From: Cyclostephanos tholiformis
Lineage: Eukaryota > Bacillariophyta > Thalassiosirophyceae > Thalassiosirales > Thalassiosiraceae
Assembly: GCA_036939975.1 (NCBI GenBank)
Contig: JALLPB010000924.1
Location: 1 to 21,221 of the forward strand
Direction: 5' to 3'
DNA length: 21,221 nt
The notes under the pieces are model-generated. The model made no database searches and was not told the DNA's origin. It saw nothing but the letters and a program-made list of their open reading frames with translations. Positions 3,397 through 11,391 of the stretch are shown piece by piece; positions within the stretch are counted from its first letter, which is position 1; each line of letters begins with the position of its first letter. The position numbers and the translations under genes are program-made.

Positions 3397-6300
3397 TCAC
3401 AGTTCTTGCGACTCCATCTCATAGTAAAGACGAATCTCCTTGCATTTCACGATGAAGTTGATAAATAACACGCCAGCAAGGATCGAACCTAACATCAGCG
3501 GGCCCCTAGAATCGTCCCACCTGCCAGGGATGCGAGTCCTAATTTTCTCCGCGCGCCACAGAAAAAGATGCAGAGCATACAGACAAAAACCCAGCGAGAT
3601 GGGGAGGAGGGCCATGGCGTACCAATGTGCAGAGACCGAGTCGGTTTCTGAAGCGAAGGCGAGTATCCCCGCCGCGATGGTGTACAGCGTCACCCCCGCA
3701 TGGAGCCAGTGGAGGAAGGTACGTTCGTTCGCGAAGAAAATCTTCGGTTCGATCTTTTGGACGGAGGTGGGCGCGAGCATTTCGTCGTTGTAGCCCGAGC
3801 AGAATGGGAACAACCATCCAGAGCATGTGTCCTCGAAGCAACCCTGCACCGTCGAATTGAGTATCTCCTCGTCCGAGACGTCGGCCCCGGCATAGTAATC
3901 ACTCCCCGAAACCACCGCAGTCTTGGTTGGCCCAGCCTCGACGAGAGACTCGGTGTTGGCGGTGCGTCCCTTCGCGTTGAGGTGAGGCTCCTTCACGTTC
4001 CCAAAGGGCAGGAGGTGGTTGTAAATTTCGTTCGCGCCGGGGCCTACACCCGTCTCCGAATCCTCCTTGACGAGGATGCGCCCACCACCGGACCGTATGA
4101 TGGAATCCCTGATACTGGCATCGTCGATCCAGTAGGGCACCGAACGGACGTATTCCGGTAGCAGTGTCGCACAGCCATGAATGAACTTCGAGAATTTGTG
4201 AACCTCGTACAGCATGCCACTGTTCTGGAGCTCGGTGACCCAATCCGGCGGCTCGGTCGTGGCGCCGCCGAGCTCGATCTTCACCTCCAACACGGCGTGG
4301 GGGAAGCGGGTGATCTCGTTATCCATGAGGGGCTTCTCCGGATCGCGGTACCACTTCGCCCCGCCCTCGGTGTCGTATCCGCGCTCTGAGATCATGCAAA
4401 GGTTGGTATCGAGTGAGATGCGCACGGTGGCGTCGAATGGGATTTGGAATGCCGTGCGCATGTACTGCGTTCGCATCGTGGGCATGAGCTGCTTCGTCTG
4501 CACGACCTGGACCATCTCGCGGACGAGGGTTTCCCAATCATCGAGCTCGGCGTCCGTGGCGCCCTTCTTCTTCATCTCCTCCCTCTTCTCGGCGATGGGG
4601 TATTCGTCGTTGAGAACTCTCTTCACGTCGGACTCGGGCACCTGAGCGTTGATTTTATTATAAGTTTAGTCGTGCGGTGTCAGTCCGGTGGCGTTATAAC
4701 TATATACACTGATAGTTGAAAACATGCTGATCCTCGAAAACAATACACGAACAACAATATATTCTCCAATGACGGAAGATTAGATAATCGCACGATGACA
4801 CACTCACTATGAACCGCTCCTTCACGCTCGCCTCGCCCGTCCACGTGTCACGATGAGTCTTCCTCTCGAAGAAAACGGTGGTTGGATTGCCCGCGCCGTA
4901 CCAGCGTAAACGATATGCGATGGCGCCCGGGGTCTTGTCGAGACGACCGTGATACAGTTCTTCATTTTTGTTTATTTGGTTCGTCGGTGGTGGTGGCGGC
5001 GGTATTGTTTGTTGGGGGATGCTCAGTATGTACGTTTCAATAAGCCGTGCGAGAAATACCAACATATGTATTACATCATCGCGATAGAAACTCACCGAGC
5101 TGATCGTTATCGAAGTAAACGCTATTGGTGAGCTGACTGTCGCTCTCGCCGGTGCTCGTCTTCTGCAAGAATACCGGCAGGTGCTTCAGGACCGCGTACT
5201 TGACCTTGCTAACGTCCTCGGTCCTGACCCAATACTTGGTAGTGGACCTGCTGAACGCCTGCGCCTCGCCCTTGTTCTCCTCCGCCACGTGATCATCCCT
5301 CAGGCACGAGTATATCGCGCTCAATCGTACGACGACGTCGGAGTAATCTCCCCGCACCCACGCCTGATTGTGCATCCTGTTGATGTAAAATTGCTTGCAA
5401 GCGTGTCCCGGAGAATTCTTATCGTGCTTCTTGAGTATCTTGTGAAAGCCCATGAAGTTGATGTTGACGTACTTTTCGAGGGTGAGGAAGGATCCGGCAA
5501 CGGCGTCGGCCATCGACCTAACCTTCTCGACGTCATCGGGATTCGGACGTCCTCCCGATACCATCCTCTCGACGTTCGATATTTCCGATCGTAGCATCGT
5601 GACTCGCTGCAACGTGAAGGATTCGACCTTGTGCAATTCGGCGTCTATGGTCGAGTAGAAATCCTCCTCGGTCACGGGAGAATCGTCCTTGGTGAGCATC
5701 CGACCGGCGGCGTTGGTGGGCGGGGGCGCCGTTAGGGATACCTCCCGAGTCGTGGTGTCCACCCTGTATGTATATTTTTATTTTTATTTCGAACCGAAGG
5801 GGGGGAACGGAAACGATGATAAACGCACGCAACAAGTTCGACGTATTCATATGGTGTTGGTGGCGAATGGTCAACACGGACGTTGTGTTCGGTAGAAGGT
5901 AAGTGGATGGGGGGAAATCGGAGGGCGGATGGGCGAAGGGGGGGGAGGGTATAGGTCAGACTATGTTTGTGACACGCGTGGAGTGCTCAAAAGGGGGAAT
6001 GCGACCCTACCACCCAATCGATGGATTGCAAACACGACACGATGACCGAACTCGACGCATCTCCGTCCCCCATACCACCAACAACAACACACATATCATC
6101 GTGTGTTGTTATATTTCGCACAACAACCCCCCCCCCCACCCCTCGGGATTTATATATCCGGCATTTCTTCTCTCCGAATTACAATGTATGACGAAAACAA
6201 GAAAAAAACAAAACAATCCCATCCAATTCGACGACGACGACGAACTTCCAATTGTGCACAATATATCTCAGTGTGACCAACTCTCTCCTCTCTCACATTT

Positions 6301-6484: not shown

Positions 6485-6823
6485 TTTTTTCTTTAAATTT
6501 TTTTTTATATATGTTCGATTACGAGATGGTAATGTAGTATTATTGATTGACGCGCGTTTATATTTCCTCCACGGGCGAGGGATGAGACGGGTAGGTGGAG
6601 AGGTTGCTTATTATATATATATTGGGTGGACGATGGATGGGCGCGAATAAAAAAATACACAGGTGATGATGGTGGATCGATCCGGACGCGACGATGGGTG
6701 CTGTAGGAGAGATGAGATATCTATTGAACCAAAAAATGCCAAGAGCGAATCTTCAGAATCGATCTCTATCACACAACAACCTCAATTCTTTTTGTTGGCA
6801 ACACAATTGAGGTTGAGGGACTA
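6485..6823. promoter_or_regulatory. VTC upstream region between gene and transposon
   Basis: This stretch has no gene. On the minus strand a TATATAAA element at 6504-6511 lies about 20 nt before the VTC start codon, and an AT tract lies near 6610-6622. Close to the transposon end there is an 11-bp perfect inverted repeat (6777-6787 and 6805-6815). It is the VTC-proximal half of what was probably a shared divergent promoter before the transposon inserted. Confidence 0.45.
6777..6815. repeat. 11-bp perfect inverted repeat beside the transposon's left end
   Basis: CAACCTCAATT at 6777-6787 and its complement AATTGAGGTTG at 6805-6815 are separated by 17 nt. The repeat ends 8 bp before the TA flank of the transposon. 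It could be a cruciform that made a target or a regulatory dyad. It has no counterpart beyond the right end, so it is not part of the TIR. Confidence 0.7.
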
Positions 6824-7179
6824 CAGTGCTCAGTACAATTGTCCAGGAAAAAAAAATGAGTTTTTTCCCGCCTCTACTGGGATATTTCCCACTTGTGGCT
6901 GGAAAAATCTTTTTTTTCCCGCCATATGATTCCTTCTGCAGGCTCTCTACAGAAGCACGCAGAAGAGAGGAGAAAAGAGCTGACCATAATTTTTCCACCC
7001 CCCCCCGCCTTGGCCGAACCCGACGCTCTCCCCCGCCGCTGCCCATCGTCCGGAGACGACGCCCTTCATGCAGTCGCTCCTTCTTGACTCCATCGACCAT
7101 CCGCCCCCTCGGCGCCGCTTCGTCTTCATCGCCATGGCCGCCACGAGCCGTCGAATTGACACCACCGCCATTGGCGCCA
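6824..7179 (+). repeat. Left terminal inverted repeat of the transposon (~356 bp)
   Basis: It aligns with the reverse complement of about 10733-11068. The outermost 26 bases differ at a single position. Inner blocks match strongly, for example AGAAGCACGCAGAAGAG and CTTGACTCCATCGACCATC. It contains two E2F-like sites TTTCCCGCC at 6864-6872 and 6915-6923 and the first coding exon of the accessory gene from 7068. The inner boundary is by eye. Confidence 0.85.
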
Positions 7180-9542
7180 TGCCAACATCCCCAAATGGCA
7201 TTGTCAGGGGTCAAGGTCGCACGAGGGATGGCAAACGAGTGGGGCCTTGTGTGAAGAAAGGGTCGTTCTCGAGGGACGATCGCCTCGCACGGGACGGTGC
7301 CCGACTGTTCTCGGCCGCCACCTCACGCTCGTCGATGTCGCCGTTGCCCCCTCCCGCCCGAGCGACTGGGGGTGATCATTCCATGCCCGTGGCTAGGATA
7401 AGGTGCGTTTGCACAGTGTGGGGGCATGGGTGGGGGACTCAGGCGTGTATCTTTCGGACACGAACGTGCAGGGCTTGATGGGTGGACGTGCCCTACCTTG
7501 CTATCTTTTTGTGTGGCAACTCGGAGGGTTGTCGCAGCCATCCGTCATTGAACACAGAGTTTTTACCTCATCCATGTCCTCACACCCCCCTTTTTGCAGT
7601 CATTCCACCGCCACAGCCTCTGCCTCGACGGCAGCGTCGACCGAATTTGCTGCCGCTGGTGCCGCATCGAGGTCGACGGCGGCGGTTTATGATCTTGACG
7701 ACGATGACGAGGACGATGTTGTCGATGTCGGCGACGAGGACGAAGACGATGAAGACGATTCCGTCATGCTCATCAGCGAGAAGCCTGCTGCGCGTCCTCC
7801 TCCGGGGAAGAAGGCCTCGTTCAAATGCATTTCGGGAGAAGTCCTCCGGGTCATGCAGGACCGTCTCGTCTCCAACGTGTCAAAAAATAACGTCACCTCG
7901 TCGTCGCACAGCACCCTCAAGGCCATGTTCGCCGATCTCGTCCAGTGCCGGGGTCCCCTCATTAAGATTGCCAAGGAGTTGGATCATCGGATGGAGATTG
8001 TGGGGGTAGGGAAACCTGTTTTGATTGCCGACCTCCTTCGCCAGGCGCTTCCCTTCGAGGTCACGAAGCGGACGTCATCGAAGTCTGGGATCGCCCAGAC
8101 ATTCATCAAGTCATGGGCAATCATCAGTGGCATCGTTGCGAACTCCAATCTCGGCCGCAAGCTCACCCATCAGCTCGAGTCTTATCTCAGCCTCATGGGG
8201 AGACTGGAGTCGACCGCCGAGCATGTCATCACCGAGGCCAACGAGGTTGACAAGAACAGCAAGTCGATCCGACTCACCGGCAGCGAGTTGCATCGGACGA
8301 TGCTCAAGGATCGCGCGACCAAGCCTATTCCGGCGATGTCGTCGTGCGCCAAGTGTGGCCACTGCTTGGTGGACGAGCCGTTCTCCAATAAGGAGACCGC
8401 TTGTCTCAACAAGACAATGCGAGACAACTGGGCAAAGGATCACGCCCAGCACGAGGAGAACATCAAGACCAGGCGCAACCCCCTCCTCGACAAGAACGGC
8501 AAGGCCATTGCGAAGCACAAGAATCCAACCCTCCTGTCCGAGCTTCTCGTTTGCCACTGCTGGCAAAATACTATCGAGGCATTCTTGGGAGGGAAGGAGT
8601 GCTTTTTTGGTTGTTACGATGCCAAGACGAAGACCCAGTTCAGGCCTGGGAAGTGTCTGGTGTGCGTCTGTCGATGCCACTTTGTCTGTCCCAAAGAGTG
8701 AGTTGCTGTCCTCGTTTGTTCGCTTTTTCATCCGATAACTCACACCTCCTTTGCAGTCTCTACGTTAAAAAAAAGCAGTATTTTGACCAGGAGAGGACCG
8801 AAGGGGCCACCAAGATCGACAAGCAGGCGGAGTCGGCTCGTGAGCTGCTCAGCGCATTGTCCCGAGTCCGGGAAGCCGCGGTTGACGATTCCTACAAGAC
8901 TCTTGCCTTGAAGAAGTCGAGGGGGATGATCGCACAATCAGTTGCGGACCCCATCCTTTGCAGGTCCGCCGAGAGTGAGGGATGGCTCACCCAGAGCAAC
9001 CATCTCCTCCACAATGGCGTCAGTACGAGCCAGTTTCTTGAGCTCGAGGGCACCATCTCGGCAATGAGGGCGCCATCTTGGCAATCGAGCGCCAGAATGG
9101 CGGGTCGACGATGACCGCCGAGTATGGCAATCTCTCGGACGACCGAGCCGCGGTGCAGCGGTCACGGAATACAAGGATCCATGACCTTCCAACAAGCAAT
9201 GAGAGGAGGGGAATCGGAACAAGTCTGGTGGAGAGTCCGGAGGCGAGCAGGAGATCCGAGAACCCTCCTCTCCGCCTCTTCGATACTCCCGAATGGATGA
9301 GGAGGGAGAGAAAGGTCAAGATCGGTCGCGTCACGACGTTGGCGACCCAGAAGATGATCGACCCTTCCATGCCAAGATCCGAGTCGAACAAGGCGTTCGT
9401 CATCCACAACAGGCTGGCGACGAGCAACCCGGCATTCGTCAGCATGGTCATCAATCTCATGCCGACTCTGCCGGGCAGTCAGAATCTCTTGGAAGCCTGC
9501 ATGATGCAGGTTTCACTGGAGAACAATAACCGTAATAAATAA
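7068..9542 (+). CDS. Transposon accessory protein, cysteine-rich, spliced, frameshifted; function unknown
   Basis: I do not recognise this family. The model is exons 7068-7402, 7600-8697 and 8757 onward. Donors are GTGCGT and GTGAGT, acceptors TTTTTGCAG and TTTGCAG, and both junctions keep phase. A shorter model could start at the ATG at 7574. After an N-terminal segment lying partly in the TIR comes an acidic tract (about 7690-7765). A helical region follows, then a Cys/His cluster: CAKCGHC, then CHC, CFFGC and CLVCVCRCHFVC (about 8345-8690), a likely zinc-binding module. After the third exon begins, the open frame stops at 9114, giving 596 aa. The +1-relative frame continues open to 9542, where the stop overlaps an AATAAA signal at 9534. 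One missing base in a 21-bp tandem repeat at 9049-9089 explains this; an intact ancestor would be about 739 aa. It converges with the transposase. A DNA-binding or transposition-helper role is only inference. Confidence 0.72.
9049..9089 (+). repeat. Imperfect 20/21-bp tandem repeat at the frameshift of the accessory gene
   Basis: Unit 1 is 9049-9068 (20 nt) and unit 2 is 9069-9089 (21 nt). They match except for two substitutions and one missing base in unit 1 (GCAATGAG against GCAATCGAG). Each full unit would encode a heptad of the type G-[TA]-I-[SL]-A-I-E. The missing base separates the upstream reading frame from the downstream frame that stays open to 9542. Confidence 0.8.
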
Positions 9543-9639
9543 TACTATCTAATTCATAATCAATCGCAAACATAATATATATCTAGTACTACATGTATGA
9601 AATAATTTTTGTACGACTCTATGTCCCCGATTGTGTCAC

Positions 9640-10644
9640 CTATTTTTGCGACAAGTTCGATGACAGTATTGACCCCTGCACGTCCATCTGCATCCTAGTC
9701 TGCAGAGTATTGAAAACATACTCGATAGCTCCGTCACATGACCAATACGGGGCCCAAAAGACTACATGATGCCCACGCTGGGCTATCAGATGCAGCACCA
9801 CCGGATGACGATGGATGTTCAGATTATCCATTGTCAAAAGGAATGATCTACCGGGGCGATTCTGATCGAGCCAATCGAACAACTCCAACAAAAAGTTGTA
9901 GAACCGAAAGAGATCGGTTCCCCCTTCGACGAAGCACCTGTGAAAGGAGAACGCCTGGCCCACCCTCTCGTCGCCAGAGATGGCCATCAAAAGGCTCACA
10001 CTCCCCTCCCCCTTCTTATACTTACCCTTTGCATCGCATCTTTTCTCCCAAATCACCTTCCCATACTTCCTATTCTGGGTCTCCAGCTTGAAATTGCTCT
10101 CGTCGAGATCAATTATATCCCGAGTGCTCTCGCCGAGAACACCCTCTGGATACACAGCTTGCCAGTACCGCTCGCGCTTGTACAGATTGATTGCAAAATA
10201 AGCACAGTCGGAGGTCGTTGATCCAACCTTACGATGCAACCCGAGCCTAATCTCGGCACGGCCAATCTGGGAATGAGAATACGGCGGATTGACAGGGTTC
10301 ATGTTGTGCACATATGCACGTACCTCGTCGATGTATGCCTTCGGACGAATCATCCGATAAACCACGAGATTGACGAGATCCTGCCCGTTGACCTCCCGCT
10401 CGGAGATGCGGTTGCCCGTTGCCCGCTTACACAAAGTGGTTCCCTCGCTATTGAACAACTGGATCCATCGCCGGCAGGTCTTCCAACAAGGGAACTGCTT
10501 CTGATTCCTCAGCTCAATGACCCACGGAGAGTTCTGCACGTCGACTCCGTTTTGCCAGAGGGACATGACCTGATCCCTCATTTCGGGTGGATACACATTC
10601 CCCCCCCTGACTAGGATGAGGCTTTTCCTCGGTCCGGGTTCCAT
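9640..10644 (-). CDS. DDE transposase, IS630/Tc1/mariner superfamily (DD34E)
   Basis: The 334-aa product has an N-terminal helix-turn-helix-like part (about residues 20-75; EMRDQVMSLWQNG, then CWKTCRRWIQLFN) and a C-terminal RNase H-fold catalytic domain. Catalytic residues read as Asp181 (LDESNF), Asp273 (MDNLNIHRH) and Glu308 (GAIEYVFN). There are 34 residues between the last two, as in Tc1-like enzymes. The usual P-Y-S-P-x-L-N-P-I-E segment is replaced by APYWSCDGAIE, keeping Pro, Tyr and Glu but not the NP pair. The start is the ATG at 10644; Met22 is an alternative. The stop at 9640 lies 97 bp from the accessory gene's stop at 9542, so the two genes converge. No frameshift or stop is visible, so it may still be expressed. 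It cuts and joins the TIR ends of the surrounding element. Confidence 0.9.
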   Translation of the reverse strand: MEPGPRKSLILVRGGNVYPPEMRDQVMSLWQNGVDVQNSPWVIELRNQKQFPCWKTCRRWIQLFNSEGTTLCKRATGNRISEREVNGQDLVNLVVYRMIRPKAYIDEVRAYVHNMNPVNPPYSHSQIGRAEIRLGLHRKVGSTTSDCAYFAINLYKRERYWQAVYPEGVLGESTRDIIDLDESNFKLETQNRKYGKVIWEKRCDAKGKYKKGEGSVSLLMAISGDERVGQAFSFHRCFVEGGTDLFRFYNFLLELFDWLDQNRPGRSFLLTMDNLNIHRHPVVLHLIAQRGHHVVFWAPYWSCDGAIEYVFNTLQTRMQMDVQGSILSSNLSQK

Positions 10645-10732
10645 TAGGAGGGCGGACGGGTGGACGATGGATTACAATATCCTTATCCGCAAACATGGAG
10701 AGCGTCGGTGGATCCGTCGGGCGGCGGCAGGG

Positions 10733-11068
10733 GGCGTCGATGACGGTGGTGTTGATTCGACGGCTCGTGGCGACCGTGGCGATGAAGACGGAGCGGCGCC
10801 GAGGGGGGGGATGGTCGATGGAGTCAAGAGGGAGCGACTGCACAAAGGGCGTCGACTCCGGACGACGGGGAAGAGCGTCGGATCTGGCCGAGGCAGAGGG
10901 GGCGGAAATATTATGGTTGGCCGCTGCTCCTCCTCTTCTGCGTGCTTCTGTTGAGGCTACACGGTAGGAATCATATGGCGGGAAAAAAAAAGTTATTTCC
11001 CACCGAAAGTGGGAAATATCCCAGTAGAGGCCTCGTTTTTTTTTCCTGGACAATTGTACTGGGCACTG
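10733..11068 (-). repeat. Right terminal inverted repeat of the transposon (~336 bp)
   Basis: This is the inverted partner of 6824-7179. It retains one E2F-like site, GGCGGGAAA at 10977-10985. The second site of the left copy is lost in a short indel. Read on the minus strand it still encodes a peptide like that of the accessory gene's first exon (LDSIDHPPPRRR), but here that frame is not linked to an accessory gene. The transposase starts inside it at 10644. Confidence 0.85.
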
Positions 11069-11070
11069 TA

Positions 11071-11391
11071 GTACCTCTATGTACCAAACTGCAAAAAAAA
11101 ATTAATTTGGCGGGAAGCGGTGCTTATGCCCCGGTGAATACGGTAATATTGCTTTTATTTTTAGAGAGTACGTACCAAGAGAAGGTAGTAAGTAAGGGTA
11201 AATCATAATATACGTTCGCACCCGCCGTATATTATGGCGGGAAGAAGATCAAAAATCAACTCGAGCCCGATACGCGAGGAAACAGGAGAGCAATGACTCG
11301 CGGCAAGAAGATCCTTGGACAAAGAAACACTCTCTCGACCGTTGTTACCACAGAAATCCATTCGCACTTGACTTAAGGCCATGCAAACACC
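11071..11391 (+). promoter_or_regulatory. Upstream region of the coiled-coil gene with E2F-like dyad
   Basis: This is 321 nt between the transposon's right TA flank and the start codon at 11392. GGCGGGAAG occurs at 11109-11117 and 11236-11244. The second forms a dyad with CCCGCC at 11221-11226, separated by 9 nt. These resemble E2F/DP sites (TTSSCGC), which drive S-phase genes in eukaryotes; binding here is inference. A short out-of-frame ATG at 11381 precedes the assigned start. Confidence 0.4.

Follow-up and report, generated by a model that had tools for sequence, protein, structure and literature searches.

Transposons of the classical Tc1/mariner type are about 1.3-2.4 kb long and encode only a transposase. 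Here we describe a longer, two-gene relative that lies in a 21,221 nt stretch of DNA from the diatom Cyclostephanos tholiformis (contig JALLPB010000924.1, positions 1 to 21,221; hereafter the window). The element, at positions 6821..11071, is bounded by long terminal inverted repeats (TIRs) and carries a transposase gene and a cysteine-rich accessory gene. We think it probable that this is the defunct remnant of a transposon of the cut-and-paste kind, in which two tail-to-tail genes encode a DD34E/DD38E transposase and a cysteine-rich helper that binds metal and DNA at the ends. Most of the doubt in that statement concerns the role of the helper.

Multi-gene elements of the Tc1/mariner type are already known. 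The ciliate DD34E elements Tec and TBE are of this kind; Tec has TIRs of ~700 bp and one gene reversed, and TBE encodes a zinc finger protein (PMC7325037). The Fanzor-bearing mariners (PGv-1, PUl-1 and others) are flanked by TA and encode a second protein, and some come from stramenopiles and algal viruses (PMC3627910). Hence, the original prediction for this locus, which took Tc1/mariner elements to encode a transposase only, was right for classical elements but overstated in view of Tec, TBE and PGv-1. In the stramenopile Ectocarpus, TcMar-2_Ec32 is an autonomous Tc1/mariner element of 4.4 kb, accompanied by a miniature inverted-repeat transposable element (MITE) of 217 bp; the feature presented as new is a transposase to which an EsV-1-7 domain is fused (PMC12477816). 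Ectocarpus Harbinger elements, in the same account, have two tail-to-tail genes (PMC12477816). In maize MuDR, TIRs of 200 bp are promoters for transposase and helper, and the helper mudrB, of unknown fold, is required for Mu integration (PMC8224964).

The diatom element resembles Tc1, Mos1, Sleeping Beauty and IS630 in its DDE_3-type transposase, D-x34-E spacing, TA target and CA-rich ends. Unlike classical Tc1/mariner transposons, its family is 3.7-4.3 kb long, with TIRs of mostly ~350 bp and an obligate-looking second gene. Tec is described as having three open reading frames (ORFs), a tyrosine-type recombinase and ciliate hosts. The accessory proteins scanned gave no Pfam trace of a recombinase domain. 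The accessory protein of Fanzor mariners is TnpB-like with a C4 zinc finger motif. Membership of that group was rejected, since the published motif occurs in none of 106 accessory proteins collected, many of which are ORF fragments. The likeness to MuDR, in long TIRs ending near both gene starts and two convergent genes, is one of layout, not descent. MuDR belongs to the MULE transposase superfamily and makes a 9-bp target duplication. The diatom transposases scanned match DDE_3 and no MULE model, and MULE membership was rejected. So was membership of Harbinger, which has a different transposase, a TNA/ANT target and a Myb-like second gene: no Myb match was seen in our domain scans and the target is TA. 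The cysteine-rich accessory protein gave no Pfam or NCBIfam match above cut-off, no Fanzor motif and no fold among solved structures.

The convergent gene pair recurs in deep lineages of the host genome

Protein searches were made over the 25-Mb host genome. Accessory sequence was found on 31 contigs (type A, that of the window, on 4; type B on 11; type C on 16) and transposases of the same lineages on 36. Both genes occur on 21 contigs, as 22 pairs, and all 22 pairs are arranged tail to tail. In some complete type B pairs (contigs C151, C401, C1393 and C170) only 58-128 bp separate the matched ends. The convergent layout is shared by at least three deeply diverged lineages within this one genome, whose transposases are 19-36% identical. 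The original prediction envisaged several copies with the same ends and gene order, and this was borne out by the convergent pairs and by the 61 end copies and the outer TA described below. It also raised the prospect of an accessory gene present solely as a host gene elsewhere. This is not what we found: 21 of the 31 accessory contigs also carry a transposase, and the other 10, which have no transposase match, often hold fragments.

By protein search, 15 contigs appeared to carry a transposase only. In two of them (C182 and C512) a profile or DNA match revealed accessory sequence, and one (C390) is truncated by the contig end. For one transposase search, the accessory was seen in 14 of 15 contigs, the fifteenth being C390, which ends at its contig edge. 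Six elements measured 4251, 4110, 3877, 3753, 3981 and 3735 bp; the right end of the C1225 element was not located by pattern. Lengths of 3735-4251 bp, and a second gene in 22 pairs, do not fit a classical single-gene Tc1/mariner element. The DD38E element of C170 (L049:1130-4882) has TIRs that are 90% identical, an uninterrupted accessory frame of 585 aa and one stop in the transposase.

The two proteins diverge together

We compared pairwise identities of transposase and accessory protein across 11 elements. The two sets were closely correlated (Mantel r 0.942; 0 of 9,999 permutations), largely because both proteins sort into the same three groups. Inside a group the correlation is still positive, but loose: the two identities are 0.61 and 0.55 for C758/C1213 against 0.72 and 0.39 for C75/C758. 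For the best pair, C52/C75, dN/dS was 0.14, 0.15 and 0.22 in three parts of the accessory gene and 0.03 in the transposase, with dS near saturation. The low accessory values indicate that the accessory has been retained as a protein and has evolved more quickly than the transposase. For the window and C723, accessory dN/dS was 0.40; 5 of the 13 comparisons made gave no finite ratio. The accessory gene has been inherited jointly with the transposase over a very long time, which fits a partner that was always carried better than one acquired recently. In this respect the original prediction, of a distinct stramenopile lineage of IS630/Tc1/mariner elements with a partner gene, stands, the partner being carried across deep divergence.

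The transposase belongs with IS630/Tc1/mariner enzymes

The transposase gene of the window is on the reverse strand. Its main open frame (9643..10644) encodes 334 aa with a DDE_3 domain and the D-x34-E spacing of a DD34E enzyme, as originally predicted. The N-terminus lies in another frame (10600..10696, ATG at 10696), entered at a G run near 10600. The C-terminus is in a further stretch out of frame (9563..9694), recognised by profile positions 336-366 (E 1.4e-5). Compared with relatives of 370-374 aa, frame shifts are thus evident near 10600 and near 9680. DDE_3 matches scored 34.4 bits in the window, 41.3 in C52 and 29.0 in C170 (cut-off 28.6); a relative, P0002, fell just under the cut-off at 27.6 bits. 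The IS630 model was matched by all three transposases tested, though under its cut-off of 100 bits. In a profile search of solved structures the best relative was Mos1 (E 2.9e-5). The triad pattern was readable in 9 of 11 transposases, C723 and C151 being the exceptions. The D-x34-E spacing occurs in the window element (C900), C1225, C52, C75, C758 and C287; C170 and C1393 have a spacing of 38, and the decayed C1213 has 22. Judged by sequence features, namely a DDE_3-type domain, a D-D-(34 to 39)-E/D triad and a TA target, the enzyme is assignable to the IS630/Tc1/mariner superfamily. Nine contigs of the genome have DDE_3 matches, and four of these (C690, C1401, C515 and C17) are outside the lists of the two-gene family; they are possibly ordinary single-gene elements.

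Among the best 120 of 206 transposase relatives, the named organisms were Thalassiosira, Skeletonema and Mediolabrus, and most relatives came from unnamed metagenome contigs. One accessory relative came from Stephanodiscus triporus. A taxonomy look-up placed Stephanodiscus, Mediolabrus and Skeletonema in the Thalassiosirales. A transposase (P0004) and an accessory protein (P0134) derive from contigs of the same source that are both 3,589 long, and are perhaps on one contig. Viral contigs scanned with the transposase and the type A accessory yielded no relative.

Ends and target site of the element

The left TIR (6821..7178, forward strand) and the right TIR (10733..11071, reverse strand) align as repeats of 358 and 339 bp with 81.8% identity, close to the size of about 340-356 bp originally noted. 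They bound an element of 4,251 bp. The original interval, 6824..11068, was correct in being enclosed by a long inverted repeat; its ends fall 3 bp short on each side. To this slight extent only, copies have their ends elsewhere than predicted.

The position of the ends rests on several lines of evidence. With up to 3 mismatches allowed, the host genome contains 61 copies of ACTACAGTGCCCAGTACAATTGTCC and 0 of a reversed control. Among 41 ends with 12 flanking bases (20 loci), the base preceding ACTAC is T in 37, and bases further outside show no comparable preference. Hence, the repeat begins CTACAGTG, and the junction is TA followed by CTACAGTG, with the outer TA as target. A motif, [TG]ACTA[CT], served to place 13 ends for the analysis of TIRs and lengths, so its presence there is partly by selection; independent support for the ends is given by the 61 genome copies and the flank-base count of 41 ends. 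The right flank, from 11072 to about 11145, belongs to a dispersed repeat (TACCTCTATGTACC...GGTGAATACGGTA) that is found uninterrupted in at least six other places of the genome and was the target of the element. Six such copies (on C1372, C1357, C115, C65, C1528 and C385) read TTTTATC-TA-CCTCTA and continue through ATC-TA-CCTC where the element stops. Thus, insertion at TA holds for the family and for the right end of this copy (TA at 11072..11073).

Two other placements were rejected. For a boundary of TA with CAGTG, as first proposed, the end copies, flank bases, TIR alignment and six target copies all place the named TA inside the repeat. If the target site were TACTAGTA and the inner TA its duplication, a MITE empty site should contain that sequence; it does not, and ATCTACCTC stands in the six target copies.

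On the left, the flanking bases (6819-6820) are GA instead of TA. The left half of the target repeat had no match in the window with up to 3 mismatches allowed, and a search for dispersed copies of the left flank returned only itself. The left flank is therefore unrelated to the target repeat and this copy has no matched TA duplication, so that either its left side has been rearranged since insertion or it is a recombinant. A short palindrome-like stretch (CCTCAATT...AATTGAGG, 6780-6815) adjoins the left end.

Small relatives share the same ends. Of 15 loci with paired ends, 10 span 194-197 bp from ACTAC to GTAGT, and the others span 177, 178, 200, 230 and 312 bp. The ~195-bp loci are small, internally deleted, non-autonomous relatives, and in pairing such MITEs with a 4-kb-class stramenopile element the family is like TcMar-2_Ec32. 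Many ends of these MITEs (L061-L075) are nearly identical, which suggests recent mobilisation. For a MITE on C962, contig C810 offers a paralogous empty site (81% over 109 columns, with one 3-nt gap adjoining the junction); the empty site reads AA at the position where TA is expected.

The accessory gene and its protein family

The accessory gene is on the forward strand and converges on the transposase gene. Its predicted first exon (7134..7402), inside and just past the left TIR, starts at 7134, another in-frame ATG being at 7068. The second exon (7600..8697), supported by 16 homologues, encodes an acidic stretch, a helical region and a cysteine-rich core (~8345-8697). The third exon (8757..9542) is broken at 9046-9085 by a 20-bp near-tandem duplication. 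The two introns are predicted from GT..AG sites and from homology of exon 3 to other lineages, in keeping with the second convergent spliced gene first proposed. Since both genes are frame-broken, the window copy is a fossil and not a working element. Neither intact genes nor intact TA flanks are supported for this copy.

Neither Pfam nor NCBIfam yielded a match to the accessory protein above cut-off. The alignment of types B and C has common cysteines (CPxC..CxC..CxxC..CxxCxC), and the core is probably metal-binding. Profile comparison (hhalign) gave E 1.8e-4 for B with C and E 1.1e-4 for A with B. The B profile, from the DD38E lineage, also matched exon 3 of the window (9042-9539; E 0.006 among 3,955 segments). 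Types A, B and C are likely to be one family. For the window and DD38E types, the profile evidence of homology is weak but consistent.

Long TIRs as candidate control regions and binding platforms

Start positions were compared in four elements in which both could be placed. In C170, C1393 and the window, the six predicted ATGs are all at most 45 nt from the inner edge of a TIR, if the second ATG is used for the window copy; the accessory start of C1393 is at -22 or +38. Hence, in these three elements the TIR would form the entire 5' region of both genes. Short subterminal repeats were in excess at 9 of 13 ends (compared with shuffles that were first-order resamplings). This layout of TIRs and starts, together with the subterminal repeats, resembles MuDR and favours a metal- and DNA-binding helper. 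In the mechanism that we propose, the long TIRs would serve both as ends bound by the transposase and as sequences that control each gene from its 5' side, much as in maize MuDR. The accessory protein would bind DNA at or near the ends, possibly at the short subterminal repeats, and may aid transposase assembly, integration or target choice.

Alternative readings

Several observations weigh against this mechanism. No accessory was seen in 13 of the 36 transposase contigs (C390 and 12 that were given no further look). The C52 element breaks the TIR rule, with TIRs of 108 and 143 bp and starts 101 and 248 nt beyond them. Subterminal repeats are not over-represented at the ends of the window copy, where 48 and 49 of 300 shuffles were as high. 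Pfam and NCBIfam profile scans gave no recognisable DNA-binding domain in the accessory protein. A model of the B form, from an alignment of 46 of 63 B-type proteins, was mediocre (predicted local distance difference test, pLDDT, 67.7) and matched no fold among solved structures; for the A form no usable model was obtained (41.8). Types A and C alone are not significantly similar (E 0.067; 11 columns in the shuffle comparison). Single A, B and C sequences also fail each other's profiles: the best single-sequence scores were 3.7 and 6.9 bits for A with B or C, and 11.6 for B with C, and the best for A with the B profile was 6.9.

The main rival is that the accessory protein works outside the DNA reaction and either safeguards expression, for example through counteracting the silencing of TIR promoters by the host, or regulates the transposase. 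Anti-silencing helpers exist in other transposons, such as VANC of the Arabidopsis VANDAL elements. Such a role predicts the same genetics: joint inheritance, selection and TIRs ending near both starts. We found no direct counter-evidence, and a cysteine-rich core with subterminal repeats suits DNA binding equally in both readings. Nevertheless, we consider this role the unlikelier of the two.

A second rival is that the three accessory types are unrelated, each lineage having taken a different cysteine-rich protein into the same place. The A-C comparison is not significant, that of A with B depends on the profile score, and composition alone can give cysteine-rich proteins a score. Conversely, column shuffles that keep composition reached the B-C score and the A-B score in 0 of 60 cases each (trimmed versions), and the C-terminal exon of A, taken by itself, also matches B, with the order preserved. 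Separate origins seem decidedly improbable.

That the second gene came from the host, by one capture or several, or is a neighbour between unrelated repeats, is barely credible: it could draw on the ten accessory contigs without a transposase match and on the precedent of Fanzor1 in mariner elements (PMC3627910), but the 22 pairs are all convergent across such divergent transposases, the accessory diverges in step with the enzyme, and no listed accessory match bears a host-gene name, most being nameless.

Neighbouring genes

Beside the element, at 3400-5762 on the reverse strand, are pieces of a gene with SPX and VTC domains (polyphosphate or phosphate handling). Other host genes in the window encode a ketoacyl-ACP synthase III and a nucleotide-sugar transporter.

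Implications

Beyond a dead transposon copy with a helper at its ends, a wider interpretation can be put forward tentatively, at somewhat less than even confidence. The elements may represent an old, undescribed lineage of IS630/Tc1/mariner transposons with two-component transposition. The obligate partner would have a new metal-binding fold, the TIRs would be twin promoters and binding platforms, and a MuDR-like design would have been reached independently. Tc1/mariner transposases are regarded as self-sufficient, which explains their use as tools in distantly related hosts. A lineage in which a second protein was retained as the transposases diverged to 19-36% identity would be a natural test of what the enzyme can lose or delegate. 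DNA transposons are poorly annotated in diatom genomes. If true, our interpretation would account for a family of hypothetical cysteine-rich proteins, of which 106 were found, and for a burst of small repeats in these genomes.

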